A stretch of 64,000 nucleotides of DNA from Prevotella sp. (GTDB lineage Bacteria > Bacteroidota > Bacteroidia > Bacteroidales > Bacteroidaceae), in the NCBI GenBank assembly GCA_017474515.1, contig JAFVHN010000067.1:1-64000 (forward strand), read 5' to 3'. Every line of letters starts with the position of its first letter. Within the stretch, counting starts at the first letter, position 1. The notes beneath the pieces are model-generated. The model made no database searches, was not told where the DNA came from, and worked only from the letters and a program-made list of their open reading frames with translations. Both the position numbers and the translations under genes were made by a program. Shown here piece after piece: positions 2,521 through 58,793 of this stretch.

Positions 2521-2608
2521 TTCATAACCTTAAATACAGTTTGTAACCATATTACGGAATCGTTCTCTTTCGAACAACAACAAAGAAACAAAGCGAACGA
2601 GGACCTGA

Positions 2609-2841
2609 TTTGTCAATATTTTTTACTAAATTTTTCAACCCCCAAAGAGTTTGACCGCAAATCTCGAAGAGAGATCTTGAAGATTGAGAGGAGAAATCTT
2701 GAAGATTTCCACCCGAGATTTGCGGTCAAACTTCGGCCGTTTTATAACCTGTTGATTATCAGTACATTACAAAACGGCCATATTTTTGACAATTTTGTCA
2801 ATAATTTTTACCAATTTTATCCTATATAGTTATCCACCTTT
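2609..2841 (+). repeat. Seven-copy intergenic palindromic element, copy A (forward)
   Basis: Layout: TTGTCAATATTTTTTAC at the left, then perfect 18-bp arms AGTTTGACCGCAAATCTC (2648-2665) and GAGATTTGCGGTCAAACT (2715-2732) around a purine-rich centre. GATTATCAGT...TTACAAAACG follows, then a second TTGACAATTTTGTCAA-like stretch, ending in GTTATCCACCTTT. The same order recurs in copies D and G, and inverted in B, C and F. Non-coding. Confidence 0.85.
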
Positions 2842-18627: not shown

Positions 18628-18881
18628 CGGAATATATTGCTCATTCAGCAACTTTTGTGCAAGTTTTTTGTGTCATTTTTTAACTTTTAGCATTTTTAAC
18701 TCTGTCGGCAAGGGGTGTTTTGCGCAAGTTACGCGTTTGCTTATCTTTTCGGGAACATTGGAGTTCGGGAGTGCTTGAGTTCGGACGTCGGTTTAGAGCG
18801 TGATGGTTTTCCCGTTTTTTTGCTTTCTTTCCGCCAAGCCGACAATCGGTTGAGGGAGCCGAAAAGAGGGGTAGCGATGTA

Positions 18882-19100
18882 GGCAAAAATTGGTAAAAAT
18901 ATTTGACAAAATTACCAAAAACAAGACCGTTTTGTAACTAATTGATAATCAGTATGTTTAAAAGTTGCCGAAGTCTGACCGCAAATTTCGGATGGAAATC
19001 TTCAAGATTTCTCCCCTCAATCTTCAAAATCTCTCCCTGAAATTTGCGGTCAAACTCCTTGGGAGAAGCAAATTCTTTTGAAAAATCTTGACAAAATTCA
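18882..19100 (-). repeat. Seven-copy intergenic palindromic element, copy B (reverse)
   Basis: Inverted order relative to copy A: ATTTGACAAAATT, CGTTTTGTAAC...TGATAATCAGT, arms AGTCTGACCGCAAATTTC (18972-18989) and GAAATTTGCGGTCAAACT (19039-19056), then AAAAATCTTGACAAAATT. One arm carries a single mismatch. No TTATCCACC end is visible. Confidence 0.82.
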
Positions 19101-19379: not shown

Positions 19380-19607
19380 CCGACGCCTCCGAGCGTCGGA
19401 GTAAATAAATCTCTCCGAATAAGAATTCAAAGTTAGTCCGACGCTTGGAAGCGTCGGCTCCTATCGAGGTGGAGTAAATTTTTCTCTCCGAACAAGAATT
19501 CAAAGTTAGTCCGACGCTTGGAAGCGTCGGCTCCTAATGAGCGGCGAAGTAACTAAACATCCTCCGAGCAACGGAAATAAAGTTAGTCCGACGCTTGGAA
19601 GCGTCGG
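19380..19607. repeat. Cluster of four CCGACGCTT palindromes
   Basis: CCGACGCCTCCGAGCGTCGG (19380-19399) is followed by three identical CCGACGCTTGGAAGCGTCGG copies at 19438-19457, 19511-19530 and 19588-19607. These three are each preceded by AAAGTTAGT and followed by CTCCTA, and are spaced about 75 bp apart. Confidence 0.85.
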
Positions 19608-19608
19608 C

Positions 19609-19800
19609 TCCTACGAGGTGTTGGCTCCGATATTGGCGTATCCTACGAGGCGTCGGCTCCGAAATTGGCGTATCCTACGAGGCGTCGGCTCAGAAATTGG
19701 CGTATCCTACGAGGCGTCGGCTCCGATATTGGCGTATCCTAAAAGGTGTCGGCTCCGATATTGGCGTATCCTACGAGGTGTCGGCTCCAAAATTAGAGTA
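19609..19800. repeat. 32-bp tandem repeat array, second block
   Basis: Six contiguous 32-bp units with consensus TCCTACGAGG(C/T)GTCGGCTCC followed by GATATTGGCGTA, starting at 19609, 19641, 19673, 19705, 19737 and 19769. The GTCGGCTCC core echoes the flank of the neighbouring palindromes. The period is not a multiple of three and overlapping frames are open only because of the repeat, so this is not coding. Confidence 0.88.
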
Positions 19801-19880
19801 TCCTAAAGAAGCGTATCCCAAAATCTTTTCTCTATTTGCAATAAACGCCCGCTATTTTTGGATATTCGGGAAAAAATACG

Positions 19881-27446: not shown

Positions 27447-27561
27447 CTATTAAATCAAAAAGTGAAACAACAAAGTCACTTCATTTCATCATTGTTTATC
27501 AAGGTAATTATGCTTTTAGTTTTTCATTATTCTTTACATTCCGACGGGTAGCGACATGGGT

Positions 27562-27779
27562 GAAAATTGGTAAAAATACTTGACAAAATCAACCTATTTT
27601 GCACGCTTACTATAAATAGCTGAGTTTCAATGATTTGAAAAACACCCTTGGTTTGACCACAATTTTCGGGGAGAAATCTTGAAGTTTTCTCCTCTCAATC
27701 TTCAAGATTTCTCCCCGAAAATTGCCGCCAAGCCTCTTGGGGCGACCAAAAATCCATGAAAAATTTTGACAAAATTATT
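27562..27779 (-). repeat. Seven-copy intergenic palindromic element, copy C (reverse, diverged)
   Basis: Arms GGTTTGACCACAATTTTCGG (from 27650) and the mirrored CCGAAAATTGCCGCCAAGCC (to 27734). Their inner extension (GGAGAAATCTTGAAG / CTTCAAGATTTCTCC) is perfect, giving a longer internal hairpin than in copies A, B or D. AATACTTGACAAAATC lies on the left and AAATTTTGACAAAATT on the right. The GATTATCA/GTTAC box is degraded. Confidence 0.75.
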
Positions 27780-27814: not shown

Positions 27815-27894
27815 TGTAGGGACATACTTTATGTATGTCCGAAATTTCCCATGTGTGCACGGGTGAGCGGACATACATAAAGTATGTCCCTACA
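27815..27894. repeat. Nested palindrome, 27-bp perfect arms
   Basis: TGTAGGGACATACTTTATGT continues to 27841 and is mirrored perfectly at 27868-27894, with 26 bases between. Each arm contains its own palindrome GGACATAC-TTTAT-GTATGTCC. It lies between convergent genes and may terminate transcription, or be a relic of a mobile repeat. Confidence 0.8.
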
Positions 27895-36647: not shown

Positions 36648-36766
36648 CGGAGTTTTTGGCAAATAGCGCCTCTCCCCCACTCCCAAAAGCAAATTCTTAT
36701 GATTTTTTAACCAATCGACGGAAAAAAAAGGCAAAACGCATATATATTCATTTGCCGGAACTTCCG

Positions 36767-36998
36767 TTTGTCAAGATTTTTCATGCTTGTTTCAGACATG
36801 AGGAAGGTTTGACCGCAAATTTCAAGGAGAGATTTTGAAGTTTGAGAGGAGAGATTTTGAAGTTTGAGGAGTGAAATTTGCGGTCAAACTCTTCGCGATT
36901 TTAAACCATCTGATTATCAATTAGTTAGAAAACGCCGTGTTTTTCGTGAAAATTGTCAAGATTTTTCATAATTTCTATACACCTTGTTATCCACCTTT
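36767..36998 (+). repeat. Seven-copy intergenic palindromic element, copy D (forward)
   Basis: The most complete copy: TTTGTCAAGATTTTTCATG, arms GTTTGACCGCAAATTTC (36807-36823) and GAAATTTGCGGTCAAAC (36873-36889), GATTATCAATTAGTTAGAAAACG, a second TTGTCAAGATTTTTCATAAT, then ACACCTTGTTATCCACCTTT. The centre contains GAGAGATTTTGAAGTTTGAG twice in direct orientation. It lies between divergent rpsP and glnS. Confidence 0.88.
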
Positions 36999-37043: not shown

Positions 37044-37196
37044 ATAAGGTACTCTCACTCGGAAATGAAAATAAAAGCAAGCTTTTCTTTTGCATTTCGC
37101 TCGTTTATCCGTACCTTTGGATAAGGTACTCTCACTCGGAAATGAAAATAAAAGCAAGCTTTTCTTTTGCATTTCGCTCGTTTATCCGTACCTTTG
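37044..37196 (+). promoter_or_regulatory. Tandemly duplicated glnS promoter segment
   Basis: Bases 37044-37119 and 37121-37196 are identical over 76 bp. Each copy has an imperfect hairpin (AAATGAAAATAAAAGC / GCTTTTCTTTTGCATTT) and a -7 box TACCTTTG (37112-37119, 37189-37196), with TTTG 19 bases upstream. The second box lies 22 bases before the glnS ATG. Both could be active, giving two start sites 77 bases apart. Confidence 0.88.
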
Positions 37197-43956: not shown

Positions 43957-44094
43957 CTTTTTTTTTCCCAATCTGACAAATAAATCCTTTTTTATTCTTT
44001 TAGGGACAATAAAATCAGGCGTAAAGGGTCGGCATTTTGGCCAATGCCGGTGGTTTTGAAAAGAGTTTTATCGGCTTTACTTAGCATCTCACAT

Positions 44095-44223
44095 AGTTTG
44101 ACGGCAAATTGAGGGCAGCAAATTGGCAATTTGACAGGTACAAATTGGCACTTTGATGCCCTCAATTTGCCGTCAAACTTTTCTACATCTTATGAACATC
44201 GATTACCAACAAGTTACACAATC
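44095..44223 (+). repeat. Seven-copy intergenic palindromic element, copy E (forward, partial)
   Basis: Arms AGTTTGACGGCAAATTGAGG (from 44095) and their perfect 22-bp complement ending CCGTCAAACT at 44179, then GATTACCAACAAGTTACACA. The outer TTGTCAAG and TTATCCACC boxes are missing. The arm variant GACGGC (instead of GACCGC) also occurs on the left of copy G. Confidence 0.75.
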
Positions 44224-44260
44224 GCCCGGAAAGCCGCCATTGTCATAGGTATATTCATTC

Positions 44261-44298
44261 TACAAACAGGCCGACGGGATTCCGCCGGCCTGTTTGTA
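44261..44298. terminator. Hairpin past the decayed surface-protein gene
   Basis: TACAAACAGGCCG and CGGCCTGTTTGTA form a 13-bp stem with an ACGGGATTCCGC loop, 50 bases beyond the gene's stop. The flanking T run is poor. Confidence 0.6.
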
Positions 44299-52835: not shown

Positions 52836-52842
52836 TGGAAGA

Positions 52843-53071
52843 TGGATAACCAGGGGTGTAAAAATTTTGAAAAATCTTGACAAAACAGGCAAATTTTCAA
52901 GACCTTTGTAACTTACTGATTATCAATAGCTTTTAAAAAGACACAAGTTTAACCGCAATTTTCGGGGAGAAATCTTCAAGATTTCTCGTCTCAAACTTCA
53001 AGATCTCTCCCCGAAATTTGCGGTCAAACTATTGAAGGGGTTGAAAAATCCATGAAAAATCTTGACAATTT
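52843..53071 (-). repeat. Seven-copy intergenic palindromic element, copy F (reverse)
   Basis: Begins with TGGATAACCAGGGGTGTA, the reverse complement of the TTATCCACC end. AAAATCTTGACAAAA and TTTGTAAC...TGATTATCAAT follow, then arms AGTTTAACCGCAATTTTCGG (from 52946) and CCGAAATTTGCGGTCAAACT (to 53030), ending in TGAAAAATCTTGACAATTTT. The inner arms extend to GGGGAGA/TCTCCCC. Confidence 0.85.
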
Positions 53072-58550: not shown

Positions 58551-58588
58551 AACCATGAAAAATGTCAAAATTTTTCATGGTTTTTTTT
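58551..58588 (+). terminator. Terminator of the HD-domain gene
   Basis: AACCATGAAAAA and TTTTTCATGGTT pair with loop TGTCAAAA, followed by a T run. Its right half is also the left end of repeat copy G. Confidence 0.85.
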
Positions 58589-58793
58589 ATTCCCCATCAG
58601 GCTTGACGGCAAATTTCGAAGAGAGATTTGGCAAATTGAGGGGAGAAAATTGGCAAATCTCACCCCTCAATTTGCGGTCAAACCCGAAGCGATTTTCAAT
58701 CCATTGATTATCAATACGTTACAAAGCCCCTGTAAAAATGTCGATTTTGTCAAGATTTTTCATAATTTCTACACCCTTGGTTATCCACCTTTT
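58563..58793 (+). repeat. Seven-copy intergenic palindromic element, copy G (forward)
   Basis: TGTCAAAATTTTTCATGG, arms GCTTGACGGCAAATTTC... and ...TCAATTTGCGGTCAAAC (to 58683), TGATTATCAATACGTTACAAAG, TTTTGTCAAGATTTTTCATAAT and a GGTTATCCACCTTTTT end. The left arm is GACGGC type, as in copy E, and the right arm GACCGC type. Confidence 0.83.

Follow-up and report, generated by a model that had tools for sequence, protein, structure and literature searches.

A lineage-restricted family of short, probably mobile intergenic repeats in Prevotella and its resemblance to PINSR

Seven copies of one element in the window

The window analysed here is the whole 64-kb stretch, which lies on contig 104 of a Prevotella genome assembly of 3.51 Mb in 118 contigs. 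Seven copies of a structured element of about 230 bp are distributed along it in both orientations, as the original prediction had claimed, four on the plus strand and three on the minus strand. The copies, with the evidence by which each was placed, are as follows.

2608..2838, plus strand: copy 1, full (profile, gene context)
18866..19096, minus strand: copy 2, full, tail variant CGCTACCC (profile, gene context)
27544..27774, minus strand: copy 3, full, tail variant CGCTACCC (profile, gene context)
36766..36996, plus strand: copy 4, the copy given in the original prediction, full (profile, gene context)
44055..44285, plus strand: copy 5, block (44096-44178) and dyad only, ends and tail degenerate (profile)
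52840..53070, minus strand: copy 6, full (profile, gene context)
58560..58790, plus strand: copy 7, full (profile, gene context)

All seven predicted places were matched by an nhmmer profile derived from 24 copies of the same genome, those of the window included, with E-values between 1.7e-66 and 3.3e-22. A profile-free search for TTGTCAAGATTTTTCA with at most three mismatches yielded 12 matches compared with 0.95 expected; for the 14-base arm alone the corresponding numbers were 17 and 8.65, which is weak evidence. The ordered set of parts was found where it had been predicted in six full copies, and copy 5 consists of the hairpin block and the dyad. The arrangement of the parts in copy 4 is given below.

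36766..36783, plus strand: left end (GT)TTGTCAAGATTTTTCA, family consensus TTTTGTCAAGATTTTTCA (exact 16-base match at 36768-36783)
36784..36806, plus strand: spacer, with the weak family consensus GATTTTT..CCCCAAAAAG (alignment)
36807..36889, plus strand: hairpin block of the words TTTGACCGCAAAT, ATTTTGAAGTT, ATTTTGAAGTT and ATTTGCGGTCAAA at 22-bp spacing (sequence, fold)
36898..36932, plus strand: dyad ATTTTAAACCATCTGATTATCAATTAGTTAGAAAA, family form ATTTTCAAnCnnYTGAWWWTCAAnnnnTTACAAAA (sequence, alignment)
36951..36968, plus strand: second end repeat (AA)TTGTCAAGATTTTTCA in direct orientation (exact 16-base match at 36953-36968)
36969..36998, plus strand: weakly conserved tail ending in GTTATCCACCTTT (exact in this copy)

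A full copy of the family has TTTTGTCAAGATTTTTCA as its left end and TTTTGTCAA as its second end; between them are an 83-bp hairpin block, made of four words spaced 22 bp apart (namely TTTGACCGCAAAT, two inner words and ATTTGCGGTCAAA), and the dyad TTGAWWWTCAAnnnTTACAAAA. The inner words are of two types, one CTTGAAG-like and one TTGGCAA-like. The layout was assessed over 103 copies, obtained from 125 matches in loci of the same genome after four without a block or with insufficient flank were set aside and multiple matches to one copy were merged; these copies were gathered with a pattern requiring an 81-base block, and their block length is no evidence. The evidence that the block length is nearly fixed comes from the arm-pair places among the matches listed, 50 of 50 of which span 81 bases under a pattern that allowed 61-86. 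The distance from the start of the left end to the block is exactly 42 bases in 90 of the 103 copies, and that from the block to the start of the second end is 62 or 63 bases in 97. In the initial alignment three poor blocks of the 36 located were omitted, and in the second alignment three cut blocks.

The left border of the element is sharp, with the information content dropping to background outside the left end in the 103 copies. On the right side conservation fades through the tail near TATCCAYC, which is the least conserved part of the element. A shared GTTATCCACCTTT end resembling a DnaA box had been proposed: the end is exact in three of the seven window copies and present with two mismatches in a fourth, but it is weak over the 103 copies, and we rejected the DnaA-box reading on account of this weak conservation of the tail. 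As read from the alignment, the element ends are direct repeats and no terminal inverted repeats are present. Given its length and its variable words, the element is unlikely to be coding.

Several other repeats were observed in the course of this work. A sequence CTCACTCGGAAATGAAAA occurs twice, 77 bp apart, at window positions 37054-37148, just downstream of copy 4. A short open reading frame at window positions 19537-19806 has a tandem-repeat peptide, which suggests repeat DNA read as protein. A TTTAGCGAAGCG-like motif, perhaps a target or a neighbouring repeat, sits a short distance outside the left end in 15 of the 103 copies; none of the tested right windows contains it. A degenerate relative at L030:12668-12849 carries a tandem array of 22-bp units AGATTTGGCAAATTAACACC with a dyad behind it and is possibly an older array form.

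Abundance in one genome and the same layout in other Prevotella

Exact arm pairs number 115 in the genome, compared with none for the reversed-pattern control. All 150 scored candidates pass a covariance model built from 33 copies (best E 9.8e-27), which sets a floor of at least 150 copies. The 36 blocks located in 454 kb extrapolate to about 280 copies per genome, from stretches that were partly picked for containing copies. As had been claimed, the copies lie between genes: none of 29 overlaps a gene called by our own simple gene caller. By their flanking genes, 13 of the 29 are located between tandem, 10 between divergent and 6 between convergent genes, with four copies at the edges of stretches left out of the count. 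There is no preference with respect to gene direction, and a role as terminator or attenuator was rejected for lack of such a pattern. Orientation relative to GC skew was not consistent in eight stretches with small numbers of copies, and a replication-strand role was likewise rejected.

The exact patterns of the family were found in this genome alone in the collections surveyed. The arm-pair pattern was found in one of 301 family genomes and the left-half pattern in one of 200 genus genomes, in both cases the genome of origin, and the arm-pair pattern is absent from the viral collection, so that viral carriage was rejected. Eighty loci around a conserved gene in relatives contained a single weak profile match (E 0.0027); because many rumen Prevotella are among these relatives, we presume that the host is a rumen Prevotella. 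The search with the covariance model proposed earlier returned weak matches, with E-values up to 0.1, in 12 of 60 other genomes. Absence from related genomes had been named as an outcome that would count against the prediction, and the answer is divided: the exact patterns are absent from the other genomes sampled, but the layout is present in other Prevotella.

By reading, we recognised the layout with other words, 22-bp spacing and a related dyad in genomes G092, G314, G321, G305, G316 and G380 and its kin. Identity between positions 22 bp apart is the highest of all lags in each of the five families tested (0.47, 0.63, 0.64, 0.79 and 0.69, with means of 0.22-0.24 at other lags); the value of 0.47 is that of the 103 copies of our family, in which lag 13 comes next at 0.40. 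A dyad around TTGAtwATCAA accompanies the words in our family, G092, G314, G321, G305 and G316, and in a looser form in G380. The strict form of this dyad was found in just 2 of 301 family genomes, which counts against a class-wide presence.

Two copies in G092 are bounded by ends TTTGTAAATWWTTTTC at a distance of 175 bp and contain the dyad TTTTGTAATATATTGACTATCAATGCATTGTAAAA, complete or nearly so, as well as a 22-bp-phased hairpin of words unlike those of our family; a third copy has both ends, and two further loci have block and dyad. The five copies occupy homologous loci (L278, L280, L284, L291 and L298) and travel with duplicated gene pairs, which counts against the mobile reading. The gene beside the element matches HU-HIG in Pfam (tested at L284 alone), and the gene on its other side has no Pfam match. 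In searches with each genome's own elements, which scored up to 40 candidates each, G305 gave 49 matches, G314 44 and G321 12, with some places counted twice; G316 gave one weak match with a query that did not contain its own element. G357 carries 22-bp arrays, and three 20-kb stretches of G570 contain no such repeat, a further point against a class-wide presence. The right part of L294 contains a tandem array TACCCAGCGAATAAGTCCTACCG of about 23 bp beside a G092 hairpin, with a unit length like that of BrickBuilt. The array words of G305 and G380 are similar (CAAAACCTATGCTTTTG and GCAAAACCTACGCTTTTAC) despite different species.

In G380, which we take to be P. intermedia or a relative of it, 18 regions within 140 kb contain a repeat about 188 bp long, with a left end resembling that of our family, four 22-bp words and a related dyad. 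Its words are of two exchangeable types. Of the 33 rows of G380-type copies, 24 could be fully classed; in 23 of these, the complement of the first word stands at position 2 or 3, and the remaining one has complementary words 2 and 3. Word 4 of this repeat was found in five of 398 genus genomes (139 matches in G380, 120 in G315, 5 in G652, and 1 each in G458 and G490) and is absent from the genome of our family. The right modules of the two families are similar, with a score of 15 that none of 2000 shuffles reaches, and the similarity of the left modules is weak (reached by 68 of 2000 shuffles).

Structure, insertion and alternative roles

If the copies were inserted, the sequences outside their two ends should be alike, and they are. 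Flank windows at -58..-42 on the left and +100..+140 on the right, compared directly, score 4.94 compared with 4.41 in permutations (z 5.49, reached in 0 of 2000), and six direct control pairs of windows gave z between -1.04 and 1.30. The comparison in inverted orientation likewise exceeds its permutations (z 3.10, 5 of 2000), so that insertion into palindromes may contribute part of the signal. Exact flank matches of at least 8 bases occur in four copies compared with 0.7 expected; the longest are of 8 bases (9 in one wider window), not all of them abut the border, and most single copies have no clean flank repeat. The similarity of the flanks supports insertion with a target duplication that would since have decayed. 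An alternative in which copies entered pre-existing TTTTGTCAA sites was rejected, as 45 of the 47 end matches in 454 kb are at located copies; of the other two, one is at a copy cut by an edge and one is unrelated. No orthologous empty site was found: among the genus members sampled, 24 of which were left unscored, the nearest reach about 80% identity in one gene stretch, and in 80 relatives tblastn at E 1e-10 matched none of seven neighbours of the PFOR gene in the window. The original prediction had offered a non-autonomous mobile element, a family of small RNAs and a chromosome-organising site, and the first of these is the best supported, because of the flank similarity, the intergenic scatter without a gene-orientation pattern and the amplification in one lineage. 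We therefore read the element as a non-autonomous mobile element that would be moved by an enzyme supplied from elsewhere.

Which enzyme this might be was considered for the Y1 transposase and integrase families, among which no autonomous partner was found. One scenario would make the element a MITE or REP moved by the Y1 transposase of the genome, or a derivative of an insertion sequence or tyrosine integrase. The genome does possess a Y1 transposase gene, but it is a single gene, its 3.3-kb locus contains no copy of the element, and the palindromes that adjoin it (GTAGGGACATAC) are different and GTAG-tagged; the Y1 transposase was rejected as the mover. These palindromes, present on both sides of the gene as GTAGGGACATACTTTATGTATGTCC (L116:1354-1899), constitute a GTAG-tagged REP family with two copies in the window (27820-27889) and 14 matches on both strands in 454 kb. 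A dyad-like motif is located upstream of the start of a putative integrase gene in L036; however, at 30 integrase loci, taken from the 36 matches listed, the dyad is not enriched (2 in 0.10 Mb compared with 27 in 1.68 Mb), and a tyrosine integrase was rejected as well. Together with the lack of terminal inverted repeats and of any known insertion sequence apparent in the element on reading, this renders the scenario quite improbable.

The predicted folding of the block could point to a different explanation, that the copies are structured RNAs or mRNA-stabilising hairpins that spread in the manner of REPs and act after transcription. The block at 36807..36889 folds as RNA with -36.2 kcal/mol (z -9.8), all seven blocks of the window fold better than shuffled sequences (z -5.2 to -11.7), six of them as a single long hairpin, and the two inner words are of the same type in 95 of the 97 copies in which both could be classed (6 more are unclassable). 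Against this explanation, no Rfam family exceeds its gathering threshold in the window, the copies favour neither 3' ends nor one orientation, and in 80 of the 103 copies the inner words have G-G or C-C at their centres. The true register pairs in 85.6% of cells compared with 24 to 56% in slid registers, but shuffled 3' letters still pair in 83.9% on average (at most 84.7), which indicates that most of the block pairing comes from near-invariant columns. A test for compensatory changes in the arms, proposed earlier, did reveal an excess of double changes (130 compared with 88, at most 109, in shuffles), mainly in the inner words. These words are near-palindromic, so that a direct and an inverted copy differ solely at the central base, and this base indicates a direct copy in 76 of the 95 same-type inner pairs. 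The covariation is accounted for by word copying, or by repair of an imperfect hairpin, at least as well as by selection for pairing. The earlier notion that structure is selected is borne out only in part: the inner words co-vary, but mostly as direct repeats, and the outer arms barely vary and carry little information. A role as RNA appears very improbable to us.

The direct arrangement of the inner words is also what one sees in operator arrays, and the element could be a phased protein-binding array that organises the chromosome, in which the 22-bp spacing would place the four near-palindromic words on the same side of the helix, where a dimeric protein could bind them, and binding would be the reason why the copies are kept. 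The 22-bp phasing in five families with different words (those of G305 and G380 being similar), the nearly fixed block length in our family, and the five G092 copies adjoining homologous genes, of which the one tested matches HU-HIG, are consistent with this possibility. It is opposed by the lack of a relation to gene direction and of consistent orientation relative to GC skew (the latter in small numbers), by the absence of the sequence from other species, by a G652 copy (L334) with three words rather than four, and by the flank similarity, which indicates insertion. We regard a binding array as unlikely.

Relation to PINSR and other described repeats

PINSR is an intergenic repeat of 188 bp, present 177 and 184 times in two strains of P. 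intermedia, about three quarters of its loci being common to both strains and about a quarter different; it is judged non-coding, without terminal inverted repeats and unexplained in source and function, and confined to the P. intermedia/nigrescens clade of four species, as reported in 2015 (PMC4755523). We found nothing on PINSR in the literature beyond that report. From a comparison with this description rather than with a PINSR consensus, we infer that the G380 repeat is probably PINSR. The distribution of word 4 of the G380 repeat is compatible with the four reported species. Two features disagree with this: the G380 repeat has imperfectly inverted ends, TGTAAAGATAATTC and GAAAAATATTTACA (11 of 14 positions by hand count), and the density of 18 regions in 140 kb extrapolates to about 340 copies, not 177-184.

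Our family is similar to PINSR, as described in that report, in being short (about 200-230 bp compared with 188 bp), intergenic, probably non-coding, restricted to one lineage and present in many copies (at least 150 compared with about 180), and in having no terminal inverted repeats, its own ends being direct repeats. It differs in its host lineage, which is outside the clade to which PINSR is reported to be restricted. In comparison with the G380 repeat, the word types are different (ATCTTGAAGAT/ATTTGGCAAAT in our family and AAAGCGGCTSTTTT/AAAGCGTAGGTTTT in G380), and the left end recurs on the right in direct orientation in our family, whereas in G380 it does so in an imperfect inverted form.

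These comparisons lead us to propose, with a probability of roughly 0.6, that the element belongs to a lineage-specific family of short non-coding mobile repeats that forms one branch of a wider Prevotella class, probably including PINSR. Insertion would generate each copy together with a short duplication of its target, which would have decayed since, and the conserved ends and the dyad would be the sites recognised by an enzyme supplied from elsewhere in the genome. What counts in the words would be spacing and pairing rather more than the actual letters, which would let them be exchanged, and they may be kept alike by hairpin repair or by copying from one word to another. A more tentative extension, which we consider possible rather than probable, is a single Prevotella superfamily in which ends and dyad remain recognisable and the block of 22-bp words is rewritten in each lineage in matching sets. 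Its middle might evolve as words are copied inside one element or from one element to another, with the two-turn geometry kept constant, and one conserved enzyme might read all members, with PINSR and our family as two of the branches. If our family follows the PINSR plan, one odd repeat becomes a genus-wide class, and the recognisable ends, if the reading is true, allow a search for the moving enzyme. The arrays, naturally varied in their words but uniform in spacing, would lend themselves to a test of protein phasing versus hairpin repair as the basis of the 22-bp period.

Other described repeats also resemble our family. BrickBuilt of Porphyromonas gingivalis is likewise intergenic and species-restricted, non-coding as our family probably is, and built of tandem units (of 23 nt, with a leader and a tail) that are predicted to form long hairpins (PMC4596501). 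It occurs in 19 copies of 1 to 22.8 units, with terminal inverted repeats like those of IS5-family elements (PMC4596501), whereas our family has four units in nearly all copies and no terminal inverted repeats were seen. GTAG-tagged REPs with their RAYTs are also palindromes in high copy number in one genome (PMC3733652). They are described as 20-40 bp long and often close to their transposase gene, and the same text assigns GTAG repeats to other phyla and, for Bacteroidetes, names CGTC repeats (PMC3733652); our element has neither a GTAG tag nor an association with the Y1 gene, beside which the palindrome is a different sequence. It differs from MITEs in having no IS-type terminal inverted repeats on reading of the alignment. 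No title on repeats or MITEs in Prevotella or Bacteroidetes, in a literature search judged mainly by titles, describes our family. The original assessment that it does not belong to a described family thus agrees with the literature titles as far as the sequence is concerned, but a very similar kind has been described in PINSR. Our family is new and its kind is already known but unexplained, and the present results are evidence that this PINSR-like kind is wider than reported, and mobile.
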